Shown here: positions 31,393-61,399 of the stretch, piece after piece
How positions within the stretch are numbered: the stretch's first letter is position 1
Layout: each line of letters begins with the position of its first letter
NCBI GenBank assembly: GCA_001604185.1
Contig: LVAV01000113.1
Coordinates: 1-64,000 of the forward strand
Direction: 5' to 3'
DNA from: Clostridiales bacterium Firm_16
GTDB lineage: Bacteria; Bacillota; Clostridia; Saccharofermentanales; Saccharofermentanaceae
DNA: 64,000 bases
Program-made: the position numbers and the translations under genes
Notes under the pieces: model-generated
The model's input: the letters and a program-made list of their open reading frames with translations, nothing else
Told to the model about the DNA's origin: nothing
Databases searched by the model: none

Positions 31393-31574
31393 GAAAATAA
31401 ACCTCCCAACTCTTTCAAGATAGAAATACTATATCTATTTTCGCAAAGGAATCGGAGAATCGCAAGGTAAAATTATGCAAAAGTGACAAACAAATGAAAA
31501 CGTTTTGTTACATAGCTTTCTTCTTCAGAACGTATAATGATACCCAGAATGAAAGAATGGGGGAGTGTCGTACC

Positions 31575-32330
31575 ATGATGGACAATATAGTGCTGATCCT
31601 GGCCTTCGCAATGGGTATCCTTCTGTGCTATTTCGGTTTCCGTCTGTTCCGTATCTCTATGGCCATGGCGGGATTCTTCATGGGCATGCAGGTCGGAAAG
31701 ATGCTGGACGCCCTGTTCCTTCTGGAGAAGATCCCTGCAGACCGGCAGGAGATCTGGGAGTGGTTCTTCCCGTTAGCTGTCGGAGTCCTGCTGGCCCTTC
31801 TTTCCTACGCGATCTACAAGAAAGCGCTTTTCCTGATATCTATGTTCTTCACCTGGTACACGCTGGTGAAGATATTCCTTCTTTATATAGTAAAGTCCCA
31901 GACGGACATCAAGCTCTTCATTACTTTCGCGCCGGGTTCCATCGCGAAGCTGACCCAGGATGCGGAAGGGTCCAAGAGTCTGATCTCGGATGAGCAGATC
32001 AGTGCCGTCATGAACTGGATCCCCGGTGCGAACGAGTGGGAGAAGTTCCTGGCTATCTGTCTTATCGCACTGGTGATCGGTATCATCGTGGGTGTCATCA
32101 TCTGCATTCTGCAGGAGCCGGCCATCAAGGTCATCACTGCCGTGATCGGTGCGGGTATTCTCCGGGATGCTTTCATTACCACCATGGGACTTCTTTATAC
32201 CTGGGATGCTCTTCCGGAATTCCTGCGCCCCCTGGCTAAGGAAGGTCTGGAGAACGTATGGGTGTCGTTTTTTATCTGGGCGGCTCTTATCGGCTCGGGC
32301 ATTACTGCGCAGATCAAGGCGAAACATTGA
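31575..32330 (+). CDS. Multi-spanning membrane protein (DUF4203/TMEM198-like)
   Basis: 251 residues with about seven hydrophobic segments. The opening pair of Gly-rich helices (FGFRLFRISMAMAGFFMGMQVG) is like the DUF4203/TMEM198 type, though the assignment is from pattern only. Start codons at 31575 and 31578 are adjacent; GGGGGAG lies about ten bases upstream. A TATAAT at 31533-31538 is the likely -10. It is followed, 180 bp on, by the substrate-like gene of the radical SAM cassette, which has its own promoter, so the two need not be linked. Confidence 0.8.
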   Translation: MMDNIVLILAFAMGILLCYFGFRLFRISMAMAGFFMGMQVGKMLDALFLLEKIPADRQEIWEWFFPLAVGVLLALLSYAIYKKALFLISMFFTWYTLVKIFLLYIVKSQTDIKLFITFAPGSIAKLTQDAEGSKSLISDEQISAVMNWIPGANEWEKFLAICLIALVIGIIVGVIICILQEPAIKVITAVIGAGILRDAFITTMGLLYTWDALPEFLRPLAKEGLENVWVSFFIWAALIGSGITAQIKAKH

Positions 32331-32457
32331 CTCTGCCTGGCGCGGCCGGACAGCGGTCCGAGTGGCGAACATATGAGGCCCACCCCGCAGACGACCCCAA
32401 GAAAATGAAAACTTTTTCCAGAGTTTTTGCAACAAAATAGGCAATGCGCTCGTCTTA

Positions 32458-32485
32458 TTGGTAAGAACGCGATAGAATGTATACA
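32458..32485 (+). promoter_or_regulatory. Promoter of the radical SAM cassette
   Basis: TTGGTA at 32458-32463 and TATACA at 32480-32485 are 16 bp apart. The leader would be short and contains the perfect AAGGAGG ribosome binding site at 32495-32501. Confidence 0.6.
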
Positions 32486-32509
32486 AATACCTGTAAGGAG
32501 GCGCGTACG

Positions 32510-33007
32510 ATGGAAAAGAAACCAATGAATCTAAATGAGATCACCAATCCGGGTTACCCGACGCTTTCTCAGGTCAAGGAGAATTCCAAAGGGGCGACAG
32601 TGGCCAAGGTGGCGGCGGTGACCGCGATCGTGGGAACCATGTCTCTGACCACAGCCTGTGGCGGCATGCTTGGCAGCCTTTTTGGAGGCAAGGAAGTGCA
32701 GCTGGCGGGCGATGTCACGACGCAGGTGCCGACTACCGAGGATACAGGTGAAGTGCTCATGGGGGAAGAGACGATGTATGTTCCGACCGATGAGACCACG
32801 GATCCGACCACCGAGACAACGGATCCGACTACCGAGACAACGGATTATGCCATCGAAGGCGAGATGGAGAGCTACACGGAAGAGACCACTGAGTATGAGC
32901 TGGCCGGTGACGAAACGGTATGCGTAGACACTTCTGATTTTACAGATCCGACGGATGAGACCGTCCTCGATGGAGATGTGATCTTTTTCACTTCTCAGAC
33001 TACATGA
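32510..33007 (+). CDS. Repeat-bearing Thr/Glu-rich protein, candidate radical SAM substrate
   Basis: 165 residues, family unknown. Residues 1-30 are a polar leader-like stretch (NLNEITNPGYPTLSQVKE). A hydrophobic segment at about 31-49 ends in LTTACGG, a near-lipobox. The rest is acidic and Thr-rich. Five spaced copies of a loose module L-x-G-[DE]-x-[TEI] start at about 65 (LAGDVTTQVP), 83 (LMGEETMYVP), 115 (IEGEMESYTE), 131 (LAGDETVCVD) and 153 (LDGDVIFFTS), joined by TTDPTTE repeats. There are only two Cys. The adjacent radical SAM-SPASM enzyme begins 24 bp downstream. The simplest reading is a ribosomally made peptide or lipoprotein modified on its repeats. The alternative is an ordinary lipoprotein with the Thr/Glu spacer common in this genome. 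Confidence 0.7.
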   Translation: MEKKPMNLNEITNPGYPTLSQVKENSKGATVAKVAAVTAIVGTMSLTTACGGMLGSLFGGKEVQLAGDVTTQVPTTEDTGEVLMGEETMYVPTDETTDPTTETTDPTTETTDYAIEGEMESYTEETTEYELAGDETVCVDTSDFTDPTDETVLDGDVIFFTSQTT

Positions 33008-33031
33008 TCTTTCACATGAAAGGATAAGGAT

Positions 33032-34141
33032 ATGCGAAGACTCACCCTGGTCATGACACATCAGTGCAATTTCGATTGCAGATACTGTCTGCAGAAGCAC
33101 GAAGATGTGTATATGGATGAGGAGACCGGCAGAAAAGCGCTGGATCTTCTGCAGAAGGAGATACTGGCGGAGAGTGCTTCGGATAAAGACGTGGACAAGA
33201 ATGTGCAGGTCTCTTTCTATGGAGGCGAACCGCTTCTGGCCCGTGAGAAAATAGAACGTCTTGTGGCGTATGCCAACGAGATGATTCGTGAAGTGCCGGG
33301 GGGAACGATCCGTTATGAGATCACGACGAACGGGTTGCTTCTGGACCGGGAATTCATAGATTTTGCAAAGAGAAACAAGATCCTGCTGGCTCTTTCCCAT
33401 GACGGGGAGGCCCAGGATCTTGTGCGTATTGACCGTGGCGGCATGGCTACCCGTGCTCGGGTGGATGAGAAGCTGAAGCTGCTTCTTCGGTCGTTCCCGG
33501 AAACTATCGTCATGATGACGCTCCATCCGGATCATGTGAACACCCTCAGCGATTCTCTGTCCTCTTTTCACGAACTTGGGGTGAAGAGTGTGAATCTCGT
33601 GCCGGCTCATGGCGAGCGGGTGTCCTGGACCCAGGAGAAGTTCGATGTGCTGAAGGCGGAACTGGAGAAGGCCAAGGAGATGTATATTGCCTGGAATCAG
33701 GGAGAGAATGCTTTCCGGCTGATTCCTTTCGAGAATAAGATACGAAACTATATCCGGCAGAAGGATGCCGATAATGCCATGTGTCATTTCAGCTGCAATA
33801 AGACCATGGTGGATGTGGATGGAAGATATTACCCCTGCAGTCATTTCATCGGTCGCGAAGGTTACTGTACCGGATCGGTAGAGGAGGGGAAGGATACTTC
33901 GGCCATCGAGGATCTGGAGGCAAGACGTGTTGAGCCCGGGATCTGCCGGGACTGTGCGATCCGCTTCCGCTGCCGTCATACCTGTGCCTGTGCTAATCAC
34001 GGGCATACCGGTGACATGTCTTCGATCTCGGCACTTCAGTGTGAGTATGAGAAACTCGTTATCCGTCTGGCGGATGAAGCCGCGATGGAGTTGATCCGGG
34101 AAGAGAATCCTGTCTTTGTGAAGAGAATGTATAAGGAGTGA
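33032..34141 (+). CDS. Radical SAM/SPASM peptide-modifying enzyme
   Basis: 369 residues. The radical SAM cluster motif CNFDCRYC (Cys12, 16, 19) is followed by the GGEPLL SAM-binding motif. The C-terminus has a full SPASM signature: C-x8-G-x4-C (from about 255), then C-x2-C-x5-C-x3-C at 305-318 and a final Cys in LQCEYE, enough for two auxiliary 4Fe-4S clusters. Such enzymes (anSME, PqqE, thioether and cyclophane maturases) act on peptide or protein side chains. No RRE-type PqqD domain is evident at the N-terminus. It begins 24 bp after the repeat-bearing protein and ends at a terminator, so the pair forms a self-contained operon with no protease or transporter. Confidence 0.92.
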   Translation: MRRLTLVMTHQCNFDCRYCLQKHEDVYMDEETGRKALDLLQKEILAESASDKDVDKNVQVSFYGGEPLLAREKIERLVAYANEMIREVPGGTIRYEITTNGLLLDREFIDFAKRNKILLALSHDGEAQDLVRIDRGGMATRARVDEKLKLLLRSFPETIVMMTLHPDHVNTLSDSLSSFHELGVKSVNLVPAHGERVSWTQEKFDVLKAELEKAKEMYIAWNQGENAFRLIPFENKIRNYIRQKDADNAMCHFSCNKTMVDVDGRYYPCSHFIGREGYCTGSVEEGKDTSAIEDLEARRVEPGICRDCAIRFRCRHTCACANHGHTGDMSSISALQCEYEKLVIRLADEAAMELIREENPVFVKRMYKE

Positions 34142-34164
34142 GAGGGCGGTCCTTCGTTCGTGGG

Positions 34165-34199
34165 TCCCGTGATCGCGGAAATGCGGCGCGGGAGTTTTT
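34165..34199 (+). terminator. Probable terminator of the radical SAM cassette
   Basis: TCCCG pairs with CGGGA around an inner CGC/GCG hairpin, followed by GTTTTTG. The stem has an internal bulge, so it is weaker than the others here. Confidence 0.55.
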
Positions 34200-34215
34200 G
34201 CTGTGGCGGAGGTGT

Positions 34216-34570
34216 GGGGACTTAATTGCCGCTGGTCGGGATTTAGTCCCCTTATTCCGAGCTCTGATGGGGACTAGATTGCTGCTACTCGGGATTTAGT
34301 CCCCATTTTCCGAGCTTTGCTGGGGACTAAATTGCCACTGGTCGGGATTTAGTCCCCTTATTCCGAGCTCTGATGGGGACTAGATTGCTACTACTCGGGA
34401 TTTAGTCCCCATTTCCCGAGCTCCGCTGGGGACTAGATTGCCACTACTCGGGATTTAGTCCCCATTTTTCGAGTTTCGCTGGGGACTAAATTGCCACTAC
34501 TCGGGATTTAGTCCCCATTTCCCGAGTTTCACTGGGGACTAAATGGCCACTACTTGGGATTTAGTCCCCA
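34216..34570. repeat. Seven-copy tandem array of a 53-bp palindromic unit
   Basis: GGGGACT recurs at 34216, 34269, 34322, 34375, 34428, 34481 and 34534, exactly 53 bp apart each time. In each unit ATTTAGTCCCC faces GGGGACTAGAT or GGGGACTAAAT across 17 bases (for example 34400-34410 with 34428-34438). A second, mutually exclusive pairing is CTCGGGA with TCCCGAG (34395-34401 with 34414-34420). Units alternate between TTATTCCGAGCTCTGAT and ATTTCCCGAG variants, a sign of duplication in blocks. The array fills the gap between the radical SAM gene and the convergent MFS gene and could act as a series of RNA hairpins. No gene is seen in it. Confidence 0.95.
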
Positions 34571-34582
34571 TCGGTCACGGAC

Positions 34583-35905
34583 TCAGTTCTCTGTGCAGTG
34601 AGGCAGGCGTTTCATGGCGACGGCGCCGATGACGACGCCGATGGCGCATACGATAGTGCCGGTGATCAGCATAGGACGGATGCCGAAGTTGTCCAGGATC
34701 ACGCCGCTGATGAGATTGGAAAAGACGCCGCCGATGGTGATGGCGGAAGTGACGTAGGCCTGACCTTTTACCTGGTCCAGTTCCTGCATGGTCTGACTGA
34801 CGTAGTAGGCGGCCGCCGGAATGAAGACCGCGTAGGCGAAGAGCTGGACGGACTGGCTGAGGTACATCATGGCCATGTTGCCGGCGAAGATCAGGATCAG
34901 GATCTTAACAAAGAAGGCGAAACCCGAGAAAGTCATCAGGGTGCGGGAAGAGATCTTCTTCAGCACCAGACCGATGAGCGCCATGACCGGCAGCTCCAGG
35001 ATCGCCTGCAGAAAATTCGCATAGCCCAGTTCTTTTTCCCCGCCACCGAGATTACGGATGATCTGGATCATGAAGTCGTTGATCATGTTGTGGGCGAAGA
35101 AGAAGCAGATGGTTCCGATGAGGAATAGGGAAAAGGCCGGATAGGTCTTGGCGAAATCGAAGAGATTGTTGTGGGCCTTGGCGCCGGGTGCGGATTTCGC
35201 GTCGTCCGAAGCGGACTTCTCCGATGCGGAACCTGCGGATTCCGTGAAGTCCGAATCGGCCTGAGCAGATGCAGCGCCCGTGCCGCTTGTGCCCGCGTCT
35301 GCCTCCGCGCTCGCGGCAGCTTTCCCTGCCGAGCCCTTTGGTTTTTTGAAAGTGAAGATCAGGATGGCGGAAAGCACCATGGCGACGATGTTCACGAAGA
35401 GTAGGATCGTGACGCCGCGGCTCTCCACCAGGCCTCCGATGAAGGCGGCGGTGATGGCGAAGCTGGCGGAACCCAGGCCTCGGGCGAGACCATAGAAGAT
35501 GCCGCAGCCGGCTTTCTGGTATTCGAAACAAAGAGCGGTCATGACCGGCTGGTAGACGAACTGGATCATGTAGATCAAGGCGAATACCGGGAAGATCACC
35601 CACTTATTATTCGGAACGAAAAGAAGAATGATGGAGCCTGCCAGGATCACGAGGACACTGAACAGGATGAAACGCCGGTTCGTTAGCGGACCGGGTTTGT
35701 CGATGATACCTGCGATCAAAGGCTGGAAAATAGCGGAAAGAATATTGGCGATTGCAAGGAGCACGCCGACTTCGGTATTGGAAAAACCATTGTCGAGTAG
35801 GAAGATAGCCGCGCACGCATGGATCGTGCAGAAAGCCACAAAATACGTCGCGTTCAGCAGGGTGTAGCGGATCGTCCAAAGTGCGTCGGGACGCTGGTTT
35901 TCCAT
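34583..35905 (-). CDS. MFS transporter, oligosaccharide/nucleoside symporter-like
   Basis: 440 residues with twelve predicted membrane helices. The N-terminal half (ATYFVAFCTIHACAAIFLLDNGFSNTEVGVLLAI) resembles LacY/NupG-type MFS_1 proteins, so a sugar or nucleoside is a reasonable but unproven substrate. The central cytoplasmic loop, about residues 197-250, is expanded by a low-complexity Ala/Ser/Asp/Gly run (SAGSASEKSASDDAKSAP). GAGGAAAC precedes the ATG. The gene ends 13 bp from the 53-bp array, which may serve as its terminator. Confidence 0.85.
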   Translation of the reverse strand: MENQRPDALWTIRYTLLNATYFVAFCTIHACAAIFLLDNGFSNTEVGVLLAIANILSAIFQPLIAGIIDKPGPLTNRRFILFSVLVILAGSIILLFVPNNKWVIFPVFALIYMIQFVYQPVMTALCFEYQKAGCGIFYGLARGLGSASFAITAAFIGGLVESRGVTILLFVNIVAMVLSAILIFTFKKPKGSAGKAAASAEADAGTSGTGAASAQADSDFTESAGSASEKSASDDAKSAPGAKAHNNLFDFAKTYPAFSLFLIGTICFFFAHNMINDFMIQIIRNLGGGEKELGYANFLQAILELPVMALIGLVLKKISSRTLMTFSGFAFFVKILILIFAGNMAMMYLSQSVQLFAYAVFIPAAAYYVSQTMQELDQVKGQAYVTSAITIGGVFSNLISGVILDNFGIRPMLITGTIVCAIGVVIGAVAMKRLPHCTEN

Positions 35906-47912: not shown

Positions 47913-47956
47913 GTAATAAACATGAACAGAATGACAAAGGAATGAGGAAAGAAGAG

Positions 47957-49321
47957 ATGAAAAGACAGAAAATATTGGCAGTGTGTGTCGCTATGGTAAT
48001 GGGCGTGTCTGCCTGTTCTAAACCATCTGAGACAACTACAGGAACGACCGGGTCCAGATCGGTCGGGAATGCCGCTGTCCCGATGACAAATGGATCCTTG
48101 GAAGATACGACCACGACGGAAGAGACGACAACAGAGACGACCACGGAACTCACAACGACCACGGAAGAAACAACAACTACGGAAGAAACAACAACTACGG
48201 AGACGACCGAACCTTCCTCTGACTCAGAGAAACAGACAGTATATGTCGAGGATGAAGAAGAACCGATCCTGAAAAGATGTCTTGTGACCGGGGGAGAAGA
48301 TGAGATCCCGCTGGAAGGATATGTCAGTGGTCCGGATCCGGTGTGGTTTATCAGCGGATACTATGCCAGTGTAGGCATCACAACGTCTAAAATGCAGCAG
48401 GTTCGCGGTAAACTGCTTTCCGTGATCACCGATGAACCCAGTCAGAATATCACCCACGACCTGAATCTTCCGGATGAGATCGATGGAATACCCGTAACCT
48501 GGGAATTCTCTGATCCTTCCCTGATCGAACCGTCCGGTAAAGTACACCGTCCGCACGACCGGAGCCAGTATCTGGTCATGACGACCACCTTGACAGAGAA
48601 AGGCACCATCAAGCTCCGTCATGTACTTCGTGTCGCCAGAGATATGTACGATACGACAGACCCGGAGAAACTTCCTATGCTGACCTTCATCGATGATCCC
48701 GCCATGTACGAAGATCTGTATGAATCCTGGATGGGCACTGAGGGCGGCTGGTATATCTTCGATGAGATGGACCTGATCGTATTCTTCGATCCGGATCCGG
48801 AGAATAATGTTTCGGTATATAACCGTTCCCGGGATCAATGGAAGAGTTATATGCTCGGTGGACAGCTTTCGGAACCACACGTGGATACTGCTCATGAAGC
48901 CTATCTGAATATCGTCACACTGGGACAGGTGCTCGATATCACGAAAGAGATAAAGGAACTGAAACTGAAAGGGGCCGATTTTTCCATAGGCGAAGTAGTC
49001 TATGACTTTGAACAATACTACCAAGGTGTTCCGGTTCTGGGAGGAATGGTTCGTGTGCTCAGTTGCATCGATCGCCCCTACGTTTCTTTGAATGTTAATT
49101 TGTTTCCGCTCTCGGGAGACTTCGATGTCGCGCCGAAACTGACTGCTGAGGAAGTGATGGAACAGAATAATATGAGCAGCGCGGAACTTTATATCTGGGA
49201 GGATGAAGGAAAACCATATCTGGTCTATATCGGATCCCGTAAAAACGTCAGTGAACGTGTATGTGTTGATGCGAAGACCGGTAAGGTCCTGCGTACTGCA
49301 TCAACGGTCATCGTGGACTGA
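47957..49321 (+). CDS. Lipoprotein with atrophied Ig-like domain, paralogue B
   Basis: 454 residues. Lipobox GVSAC, then a spacer of TTTEETTT repeats (about 50-95), then the same modules as paralogue A: ITDEPSQNITHDLNLPDEID, WEFSDPSLIEPSGKVHRPHD, and a C-terminal end with YQGVPVLGGMVRV and CVDAKTGKVL. Tandem duplication is clear from shared order and motifs. AGGAAAGAAGAG precedes the ATG at 47957; an in-frame ATG 15 bases upstream is less likely. The C-terminal YQGVPVxGG and VDAxTG elements recall the FTP/PepSY inhibitory modules of secreted proteases, but this is only similarity. Confidence 0.8.
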   Translation: MKRQKILAVCVAMVMGVSACSKPSETTTGTTGSRSVGNAAVPMTNGSLEDTTTTEETTTETTTELTTTTEETTTTEETTTTETTEPSSDSEKQTVYVEDEEEPILKRCLVTGGEDEIPLEGYVSGPDPVWFISGYYASVGITTSKMQQVRGKLLSVITDEPSQNITHDLNLPDEIDGIPVTWEFSDPSLIEPSGKVHRPHDRSQYLVMTTTLTEKGTIKLRHVLRVARDMYDTTDPEKLPMLTFIDDPAMYEDLYESWMGTEGGWYIFDEMDLIVFFDPDPENNVSVYNRSRDQWKSYMLGGQLSEPHVDTAHEAYLNIVTLGQVLDITKEIKELKLKGADFSIGEVVYDFEQYYQGVPVLGGMVRVLSCIDRPYVSLNVNLFPLSGDFDVAPKLTAEEVMEQNNMSSAELYIWEDEGKPYLVYIGSRKNVSERVCVDAKTGKVLRTASTVIVD

Positions 49322-59725: not shown

Positions 59726-61399
59726 TCAGCCGGCGAAGGTCATGCCCATGAGGAGTTCTCTATCCTCTTTGCCGGCGATTGTTACAGGATAATTGCTGTC
59801 ATCGTAAGGAACGCGGATGGTTTCTCCGGAACCCTGCTCGGTCATGACAGTGATGTCGATCATATGCTTCGAATCGTCATATGTCTTCAGAAGAACGGCT
59901 GATCCGGAGGGGATAGTAAACTCCTTGCCCTCGCTGCCGTCTTCGTTCACGAGTTTTCCGGTAATATCCTGCTTGGTCAGAAGTGCGTGGCTGATACGCT
60001 GCTTGGTATTGTTCATCTCTGTGATCTGGCCATTGGTACCGATCATAGAATTCGTGGCGATGTAATAGCAGGTGCTGGCGATGTCGGTACGAGCGTGCAT
60101 GACGATCGCTCTCGGATCATAGCACTGATTGATAAATCCGCCGCGGCTTGAACCCTTCTCAAGTGTGCCGTCATCGTTGATCTTGAACATCGTCTGGACA
60201 GAATCGTCATCTTCTACTGTTGTGGTGATGCACAGATAGAAACCCTTATCGGTCTTGATCAGATAGGCGTTATCGTAGAAGCCGTAGAAGCTTTCTCCCA
60301 GGTCGGATTTCAGGACGTTCTCCTTGCCGTTCACATTGATGGTCAGCTTTTCAAATTCGTTGTATTCACCTTCTGTGCTCTCGATGGTGATCTTGTCTGT
60401 TTTGCCGTCACCATCGATATCCCAGTCGATCACATCCTGGACATCGGTTTCGATGCAGTAGTATACCGGTGTCGATCCGAACATATCCATATTGAACCAT
60501 GCGGGATTATGGATCGCGGAGACCTTGACGGCATGGTAATCATCCTGAATGTAGATACCGTCATAACTCAGTGCGAAAGAAGCACTGCCGTTTCTGATCT
60601 TGTCCACGATCCCCTCGCTGACCTTCCAGGTGATGCGCTCATTCTTCTTCATGGCTTCCTTAACATAGTCCGCAAGTGCGTCCTTGTCCAAGACCACATC
60701 CTCGAACTTGATCGGTTCACCGGTCTTCGAGTTGAAGTTGGCATAATTGGTGGTCGTACTGTTGCCGGAGCGGACCAGAAAACTGCAGAACTGATCGTCG
60801 GCTCGTGTGATGCGGGTCTCCGGATAGTAACTGGAAGGATTCGGTTCTTTACCGTCCTTAGCGGTGGCTAGCATCTTGTTCAGTTCCTGCTGGTACTCTT
60901 TGTCGACTTTGCTGATGTATTCATCGAAGAAGGTTTTGACATTCTCGTTAAGCTTCTTGTTCGAAGAATCGTTGAGAGAGAAGTAAAGGATATCTTCATC
61001 AACGAAAAATGCTTCCGGGTAATCTGTTTTGGCCGTGTTCTTAACACTGTAACCGAGTGCCTTGCGCTCGGATGTGATGACGAGATTAGTCAGTGACGCG
61101 TCATACTTTACGTCTGTAGAAGGAGCCTTGGTCTCGGAAGAAGCGGTGCTCTCTTCCGAAGATGTGCCCTCTGTCGTGGTTTCTTCTGTGGCAGAAGTGG
61201 CGGACTCGGTGGTCGTTGTTTCTTCTTTGCTTTCTGAAGTCGTTGTTGTCGCTTCAGTGCTCTCTGTTGTAGTTTCTACCGTTGTTTCTGTTGTGGTCTT
61301 GCTGCTTGCCCTGGTCGTTGTGGACTCAGAAGTCTTGGCGCAGGCGGCGGCAGTCATGATCATGGAACAAACTAAGATCGATGCGATTTTCTTCTTCAT
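59726..61399 (-). CDS. Thr/Glu-rich-spacer lipoprotein with RsiV/DUF3298-like domain
   Basis: 557 residues. The signal peptide ends TAAAC. An exceptionally long spacer of Thr, Glu and Ser covers about 22-95 (ETTVETTTESTEATTTTSES type). The following domain (about 100-330) has ITRADDQFCSFLV, FNSKTGEPIKFEDVVLD and FALSYDGIYI, the order of DUF3298/RsiV-type domains. Then WDIDGDGKTDKITI is an FG-GAP or calcium-binding-like element. GGAGG precedes the ATG at 61399. RsiV domains bind lysozyme in other Firmicutes; a similar role here would be a guess. Confidence 0.82.
   Translation of the reverse strand: MKKKIASILVCSMIMTAAACAKTSESTTTRASSKTTTETTVETTTESTEATTTTSESKEETTTTESATSATEETTTEGTSSEESTASSETKAPSTDVKYDASLTNLVITSERKALGYSVKNTAKTDYPEAFFVDEDILYFSLNDSSNKKLNENVKTFFDEYISKVDKEYQQELNKMLATAKDGKEPNPSSYYPETRITRADDQFCSFLVRSGNSTTTNYANFNSKTGEPIKFEDVVLDKDALADYVKEAMKKNERITWKVSEGIVDKIRNGSASFALSYDGIYIQDDYHAVKVSAIHNPAWFNMDMFGSTPVYYCIETDVQDVIDWDIDGDGKTDKITIESTEGEYNEFEKLTINVNGKENVLKSDLGESFYGFYDNAYLIKTDKGFYLCITTTVEDDDSVQTMFKINDDGTLEKGSSRGGFINQCYDPRAIVMHARTDIASTCYYIATNSMIGTNGQITEMNNTKQRISHALLTKQDITGKLVNEDGSEGKEFTIPSGSAVLLKTYDDSKHMIDITVMTEQGSGETIRVPYDDSNYPVTIAGKEDRELLMGMTFAG

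Follow-up and report, generated by a model that had tools for sequence, protein, structure and literature searches.

A radical SAM-SPASM enzyme paired with leader-bearing lipoproteins in a family of Clostridia: a candidate route to surface lipoprotein modification

The gene pair and its features

The window analysed here, a stretch of 64,000 nucleotides at the start of contig LVAV01000113.1 of Clostridiales bacterium Firm_16 (GCA_001604185.1), harbours a two-gene locus on the + strand, in which a 165-aa lipoprotein-like open reading frame (ORF; 32510-33007) is followed, after a gap of 24 bp (33008-33031), by a 369-aa radical SAM-SPASM ORF (33032-34141). Judged from sequence, the pairing of these genes, the leader and motif carried by the small protein, and the co-occurrence of these elements across related genomes are well established, and they point to a putative maturase acting on leader-bearing lipoproteins. 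A preliminary description of the locus, drawn from the letters of the window, had given the ORF positions, the gap and the cysteine motifs CxxxCxxC (enzyme residues 12-19) and C-x2-C-x5-C-x3-C (305-318, within the full SPASM set), all of which are present.

The small protein, preceded by a Shine-Dalgarno-like AAGGAGG (32495-32501, + strand, read directly, 8 nt ahead of the ATG) and identified as a putative precursor by alignment with its homologues, opens with a polar start containing PGYPTL, runs through a hydrophobic stretch to TTAC and ends in an acidic Thr-rich tail; it has two Cys in total. Its predicted leader, a long signal-peptide n-region (aa 1-33, MEKKPMNLNEITNPGYPTLSQVKENSKGATVAK; 32510-32608), is supported by the conserved P-x-YPT and by leader profiles A5, A6 and A7, and is followed by the hydrophobic segment with the putative lipid-acceptor Cys50 (SLTTAC; 32609-32659), kept in 14 of 14 aligned proteins. 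Hydrophobic segment and Cys together read as a lipoprotein signal. The tail was described as carrying five L-x-G-[DE] copies; five units are indeed found, four with Leu and one with Ile, all of the form [LI]-x-G-[DE]. With their position-specific scoring matrix scores, they are VQLAGD (aa 63-68, 32696-32713, 19.4), EVLMGE (aa 81-86, 32750-32767, 10.8), YAIEGE (aa 113-118, 32846-32863, 14.8), YELAGD (aa 129-134, with Cys138 following at Gly+5, a placement taken up in the Cys count below; 32894-32923, 18.5) and TVLDGD (aa 151-156, 32960-32977, 13.7), all on the + strand. These repeats exceed chance: past Cys50 the loose pattern [LYIMVF]xG[DEGAST] is found at seven places, where 5000 shuffles gave 1.8 on average (P = 0.0004). 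The sole DNA tandem repeat reported by Tandem Repeats Finder in the lipoprotein gene is the Thr-rich spacer encoding the TTDPTTE stretch (21 bp x 3, 32782-32845), which lies outside the motif; the L-x-G units were not reported. Neither NCBIfam (at E<=1) nor Pfam (above cut-off) returned a match for the protein.

Profiles, alignments and structure matches agree in placing the start of the enzyme directly at the radical SAM core, with no N-terminal extension. In an alignment of 78 family enzymes, which excludes five short ones, Cys 12, 16, 19, 251, 269, 305, 308, 314, 318, 320 and 337 are invariant, so that every row has both CxxxCxxC (33065-33088 in the window) and the seven-Cys SPASM set (Cys 251, 269, 305, 308, 314, 318 and 337; region aa 251-337, 33782-34042) that characterise radical SAM-SPASM maturases. 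The additional invariant Cys320 (33989-33991) forms part of a C-x-C-x-N signature.

Pairing of enzyme and lipoprotein across the bacterial family

A scan of 84,980 species genomes yielded 13 loci with enzymes 59-68% identical to that of the window, mostly from assemblies whose titles name the ruminant gut and two of them labelled Mageeibacillus, and each of the 13 has a gene upstream that encodes a homologous small protein. Of 115 genomes analysed from the bacterial family, 77 encode the enzyme (E<=1e-40), and at E<=1e-45 it was found in 0 of 73 other genomes of the order. Searches of the same 115 genomes with profiles A5 and A6 detected a leader protein in 77 of 77 enzyme-bearing and 1 of 38 enzyme-free genomes (Fisher test with kinship ignored, 2e-29 overall and 6e-23 within the largest genus, g5); the source genome contains one leader protein by leader-profile search. 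The preliminary description had held that enzymes lacking the partner, or partners widespread without the enzyme, would contradict a functional pairing; neither pattern is seen in these counts.

Among 83 distinct enzyme loci examined, three (L087, L090, L102) are cut upstream and were dropped from the adjacency count; 79 of the remaining 80 have a same-strand leader lipoprotein no more than 1.6 kb upstream, in most cases encoded by the adjacent gene, and in the exceptional genome, G088, a leader protein with four motif units is encoded away from the enzyme. The locus set was selected by filter, with L047, L057, L061 and L070 added by eye; at least one motif unit occurs at 74 of the 77 tabulated loci, and at least two precursors at 15 of 77. 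Beyond the pair and antisense frames, no further gene common to loci outside genus g1 appeared in the 22 largest neighbour clusters of the few-kb flanks; in g1 the loci have a whole syntenic block in common. The system appears to consist of two genes. The substrate-maturase pairing proposed earlier, with a kept module and drifting spacers, is therefore borne out as a gene pair across relatives, and it shows the general traits of ribosomally synthesised and post-translationally modified peptides (RiPPs), namely a conserved leader, a variable core, an adjoining maturase and precursor paralogues, together with a predicted modification of the product.

Leader and lipoprotein signal

Across an alignment of 14 g1-type proteins, M1, P5, P14, Y16, P17, T18, Q21, K33, A35, V37, A39 and Cys50 never vary, with only E62 and G67 invariant in the tail. 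In genus g5 the leader takes the form MKI-x-P-x-K-x-Y-K-K-P-L-Y-A-x-G, after which come a hydrophobic run and, in most cases, [GA]C, and a general form is roughly M-K-x-x-P-x-K-x-Y-x-x-P-x-Y. Leader profiles of three lineages align with hhalign probabilities of 97.9, 96.9 and 95.7%, scores that are raised by the common hydrophobic run. The residue preceding the lipid Cys is Gly in 64, Ala in 23, Ser in two and another residue in four of 93 precursors, a set partly selected by a lipoprotein-signal filter. Precursors thus have the positive n-region, hydrophobic segment and small residue before Cys typical of bacterial lipoproteins, lipidation and cleavage being predicted, and the leader reads as the n-region of a lipoprotein signal peptide.

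A repeated Gly motif in the tails

Expectation-maximisation on 89 tails, from which four precursors with tails longer than 190 aa were excluded (they were later placed in the held-out set), recovered the motif T-[TDE]-[ED]-[VYIP]-x-[LIY]-[ADEM]-G-[EDG]-[VETAIM]-x, with 315 sites in 87 of the 89 tails and a score of 4150; six runs on shuffled tails (40 iterations, against 60 for the real tails) scored 861-979, with 104-127 sites. Information peaks at Gly (2.93 bits) and then at [LIY] (2.76 bits), each at 94% in the model; the residue after Gly is Glu or Asp in 73%, Gly in 18% and Ala in 5%. The L-x-G-[DE] proposed earlier is better given as [VYI]-x-[LIY]-x-G-[EDG], the acid being less constrained than Gly and [LIY]. 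Spacers drift, as do repeat number (median three) and tail length (21-150 aa), but the repeats themselves are retained. A folded repeat domain was considered and rejected: in an AlphaFold2 model from a 14-row alignment the substrate tail is predicted to be disordered (mean predicted local distance difference test, pLDDT, 48.7; predicted template modelling score, pTM, 0.15).

Since the tails are compositionally biased, Leu-x-Gly repeats could in principle arise by chance or from the low complexity of an acidic chain rich in Thr, but 332 sites were observed against 96 +/- 9 in 500 shuffles of the same composition, and the five leader-free lipoproteins scanned in the window, one of them rich in Thr and Glu, contain no unit; such an origin is highly improbable and was rejected. 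The preliminary description had itself cautioned that a Thr-rich spacer is no evidence. Two other lipoproteins of the window have long Thr/Glu-rich spacers past the Cys and no leader (47942-49321 and 59726-61399); of the two, the motif scan covered the latter, in which it found no unit.

Leader and motif on unlinked lipoproteins

The g5 leader also heads larger lipoproteins encoded elsewhere in the genome. A held-out set of 27 leader proteins was assembled from 20 regions hand-picked among leader-profile hits and seven older loci, several being near-identical orthologues. Within the first 100 aa past the Cys, 19 of the 27 have at least one unit (25 sites; mean 0.21 and maximum 2 in shuffles), and none of the 27 has a unit beyond that distance. 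Among lipoprotein-like ORFs, the motif is present in 19 of 23 that bear the leader, some of which are training members, and in 2 of 27 scored as leader-negative, both of which carry a divergent leader (KIEQKHNSNVPAYA, KIEPKKNSKTPAYA). Because leader-negative ORFs, including those of the window, otherwise lack the motif while leader-bearing ones mostly have it, the motif, as judged by these counts, goes with the leader and is not a trait of lipoproteins at large or of Thr/Glu-rich tails as such. Three of the unlinked leader lipoproteins, of about 387 aa (L139 on the + strand, L140 and L141 on the - strand), contain DIAHELTHVITERNHRTTEI, which by eye resembles an HExxH metallopeptidase; Pfam gave no match for the one 387-aa protein searched.

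These results bear on an alternative in which the motif stays unmodified, serving surface lipoproteins in structure or binding, and the enzyme has a different target, such as a cofactor or some other peptide. An alternating V-x-L-x-G could form a strand or docking element; against this, leader proteins track the enzyme gene genome by genome, leader and motif occur together on unlinked proteins too, the tail is predicted to be disordered, and the neighbour clusters shown offer no other gene common to loci outside g1. We regard this explanation as improbable.

Distant relatives

In a 391-genome sample of the class, besides seven enzymes from the same family, nine homologues with 31-36% identity were found in seven other families. 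At eight of these nine loci the enzyme is accompanied by one to three lipoproteins, mostly of about 220-270 aa, with a leader of the form K-x-Y-x-x-P-x-Y-P-x-K-E-E...L-L-K-x-x-P-x-R-W-K; at L189 the leader lipoprotein lies downstream of the enzyme, and at L195 only a piece of it is visible near the contig end. The substrate is not confined to repeat proteins: leader and motif are also found on larger lipoproteins, and most of these distant homologues are paired with lipoproteins of about 250 aa in place of repeat tails. Of 18 aligned sequences, including those of G005-G007, nine have HGxGR[GS][SAG][FY]GC in the stretch past the Cys, two have VLAGD, and seven have neither or are cut. It is plausible that a single juxtamembrane unit came first and repeat tails arose afterwards. 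Searches of four distant or divergent partner lipoproteins against Pfam and NCBIfam gave no family above cut-off, and plasmid searches returned one distant enzyme match and no lipoprotein match. At L196, one of the three partner proteins has lost its lipid Cys.

Nearest families of the enzyme and the likely chemistry

The best NCBIfam matches of the enzyme are PapB (168.5 bits, cut-off 340), a nif11 maturase (132, cut-off 519) and SCIFF (131, cut-off 425), and the best 25 of its 69 matches all fall below their cut-offs. By structure, its nearest relative is CteB, followed by an anaerobic sulfatase maturase, ChlB and TigE. The nearest enzymes and folds, those of PapB, SCIFF/CteB and anaerobic sulfatase maturase, are peptide-oxidising maturases. 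Ten homologues called SCIFF-type by eye (nine from the order and L015 from the source genome) have 96-208 residues preceding the core, measured in stop-to-stop frames, which the enzyme lacks. In CteB and in all ten of them the position of Cys320 is Ala; this Cys might complete an auxiliary cluster as its fourth ligand, or might donate hydrogen. The source genome has radical SAM matches of another kind as well, at G000:C96:39930-41875 (L016, L017), with 25-26% identity.

Given a maturase-substrate pair, the chemistry may be a Cys-independent two-electron oxidation, with hydrogen abstraction at [LIY]-x-Gly and a change of -2 Da per unit, to which we give only just short of an even chance. Oxidation, the loss of two hydrogens, is the first choice because the near families oxidise peptides. 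As neither a Cys nor an aromatic partner is strictly conserved in the repeats, thioether or cyclophane formation throughout is impossible, and thioether as a general chemistry was rejected on the Cys counts: tails have no Cys in 33 of 89 cases and one in 50, compared with a median of three units, and at 23 of 74 loci tail Cys is wholly absent.

The tail cysteines that do occur are not placed at random. Half of them (32 of 64, Cys138 of the window protein at 32921-32923 included) sit 4-5 residues past a motif Gly, and at Gly+5 there are 21, against a null mean of 3.5 and maximum of 10 in 2000 draws. The low Cys content remarked on earlier is confirmed by the two Cys of the window protein, but with about one motif unit in ten having a Cys at this distance some room is left for thioethers. 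A ranthipeptide-like system, in which [DE]-Cys thioethers form in Cys-bearing units (G-[DEG]-x2/3-C, unit 4 of the window among them) and Cys-free units are relics or spacers, would fit this placement, agrees with PapB being the best NCBIfam match, and finds a parallel in the HGxGR[GS][SAG][FY]GC stretch of half of the aligned distant partners. Thioethers with the acceptor ahead of the Cys are known, as in NxxcA, where an extract of PMC8326336 describes a link from Cys23 to Asn20. However, such a Cys occurs in just 32 of 315 units, many tails and loci lack Cys altogether, and PapB fails on the transposed arrangement, a substrate with Asp...Cys being reported as unprocessed in the available part of PMC9413430, which makes this alternative decidedly unlikely.

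Epimerisation is the best rival to oxidation, though we consider it rather unlikely. The alpha carbon of [LIY] would be inverted in each unit, Cys320 would return the hydrogen, and D-residues by the anchor would make the exposed tail resistant to gut proteases. Radical SAM epimerases use a Cys hydrogen donor, and Cys320 is invariant in 78 of 78 enzymes while being Ala in CteB and the SCIFF-type homologues; the tolerance of the site for Leu, Ile and Tyr fits alpha-carbon chemistry, as does the want of a strictly conserved partner residue. Yet the closest families are oxidising cross-linkers, Cys320 lies in a C-x3-C-x-C cluster region and may be a mere cluster ligand, and no named epimerase is among the 50 structural matches listed.

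Sequence context of the pair

The pair shares its strand with the gene ahead of it (31494-32330). The preliminary description had assigned the pair its own promoter and terminator; a consensus scan of 32200-34700 gave no promoter-like site on the + strand, and three terminator-like sites against 1.8 expected, which is near chance, so neither assignment could be upheld. A 53-bp unit with palindromic ends (GGGGACTAAATTGCC...GGGATTTAGTCCCC) forms tandem arrays at 34215-34571, just 3' of the enzyme gene, and at 155-230. With 32 matches (up to three mismatches) on six contigs of the source genome, and none for the reversed-pattern control, it constitutes a dispersed repeat family.

A proposed system for modifying surface lipoproteins

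Taken together, the observations are best explained by a radical SAM-SPASM maturase that modifies leader-bearing lipoproteins in a largely Cys-independent manner, a reading to which we assign a probability of about 0.7 and in which the reaction, its site at the motif and the route of export are inferred. The enzyme would recognise the leader M-K-x-x-P-x-K-x-Y-x-x-P-x-Y within the signal-peptide n-region and act, in the cytoplasm and ahead of export, on [VYI]-x-[LIY]-x-G-[EDG] units past the lipid Cys, of which the large lipoproteins have one or two and the repeat protein several. Modification would precede export because radical SAM enzymes are cytosolic and the leader lies ahead of the membrane segment. 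After Sec export and lipidation, signal peptidase II, which in the lipoprotein pathway cleaves ahead of the lipid Cys, would take off the leader along with the membrane segment, so that the modified tail is left exposed at the surface on its lipid anchor. Such removal would account for the lack of a conserved protease or exporter beside the pair in the 22 largest neighbour clusters.

Several points weigh against this interpretation. The modification itself is a prediction from genes and models. No leader-binding domain was identified in the enzyme, and an AlphaFold2 prediction of the enzyme-substrate complex, which the preliminary description had suggested as a check and which was run as one shallow fold of a fused read-through chain, gave no confident docking (substrate pLDDT block means 23-38). 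The leader counts depend on cut-offs (A5 E<1e-6, A6 E<1e-11) chosen after the gap in the hit lists was visible, and they omit weak A5 hits (E>1e-6; the best hits of G000, G101, G113 and G067) and weak A6 hits (E>1e-5; the best hits of G022, G035, G046, G058, G065, G075, G087 and G091, and weak second hits too); the loci, moreover, are related, and their counts are not independent. Some of the genomes are incomplete, and the lone enzyme-free one with a leader protein, G053, is 85% complete. L061 scores no motif unit, and at L057, L060 and L104, beside second enzyme copies of G005-G007, a leader is present with no unit. These three divergent paralogues are among the eight of 27 held-out leader proteins without the motif, the others being the L150-L152 orthologues and two proteins with LIAGEM at the Cys, outside the scoring window. 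Further away, one of the nine class-level homologues (L197) has no visible leader lipoprotein, two phylum-level homologues (L199 and L200, from a 398-genome sample of the phylum) have none in the 1.5 kb upstream, and L196 keeps the radical SAM motif and three leader-protein partners but has lost several SPASM cysteines.

If lipoproteins are modified in this way, the co-occurrence of tag and motif on unlinked lipoproteins with long extra parts would indicate tailoring of surface proteins, not production of a peptide. It is tempting to extend this to a genome-wide tailoring of surface lipoproteins, with a signal-peptide leader, signal peptidase II as leader protease, a novel Cys-independent modification at anchor-proximal Gly units of many different lipoproteins, an origin from single-domain substrates within Clostridia and an expansion into repeat tails in the gut family; this remains a tentative view, which we would place below even odds. 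As to function, one may guess at a tether that withstands proteases, a tag for binding or an anchor that is cross-linked. With leader and motif defined, candidate substrates are easy to find.

Comparison with known radical SAM peptide systems

Most radical SAM peptide systems described so far yield small secreted products and have proteases and transporters of their own; unlike them, the system described here has a lipoprotein as its presumed substrate and a signal peptide as its leader. A similar idea underlies the 'rSAM with lipoprotein' pair TIGR04133/TIGR04134, reportedly described by Haft and Basu in 2011, in which a radical SAM enzyme is likewise paired with a putative lipoprotein. Membership in TIGR04134 was rejected, as the window lipoprotein has no match to it at E<=1; that profile gave no match in the source genome, nor any in control genomes. 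TIGR04133 is absent from the best 25 of the 69 enzyme profile matches.

PapB (NF047865) with its substrate PapA gives the best profile match, which covers nearly the whole profile, and there too a repeat-motif substrate is paired with one SPASM enzyme. The score of the window enzyme is nevertheless half of the curated cut-off, relatives reach 222.4 and 189.8 bits, and the substrate, unlike PapA, has a lipoprotein signal and no Cys-x3-Asp/Glu units, with no Cys in 33 of 89 tails and one in 50; assignment to PapB was rejected. The SCIFF maturase CteB (TIGR03974; PDB 5WGG/5WHY) is the top solved structure by both sequence and fold. Here too membership was rejected, at 131 of 425 bits and with two Cys in the precursor against six in that of SCIFF; the enzyme has C-A-C-A-N where SCIFF enzymes have C-A-A-N, and the alignment starts at its residue 2-3, so that it has no counterpart of the N-terminal extension, which in CteB is a RiPP recognition element according to an extract of PMC8326336.

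A literature search turned up no paper on such a radical SAM-lipoprotein system among those listed; a graspetide paper mentions lipoproteins near ATP-grasp clusters and, in its accessible part, describes no system of this kind (PMC8939145). A precedent in substrate design is TvgA/TvgB, with Cys-free TVGG repeats that are modified separately from one another, Val being converted to cyclopropylglycine (PMC9062424, in part). Both systems use Cys-free repeats of an aliphatic residue and Gly. The motif differs, however, TvgA/TvgB belong to a five-gene cluster with transporters, and a lipoprotein signal, present in the precursor here, is not mentioned in the available portion of that paper; because the site here also takes Tyr, the conversion of Val to cyclopropylglycine cannot be the general reaction. 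Set beside these systems, the pairing of a radical SAM-SPASM enzyme with tagged lipoproteins in gut bacteria suggests a so far unrecognised way to modify surface lipoproteins.

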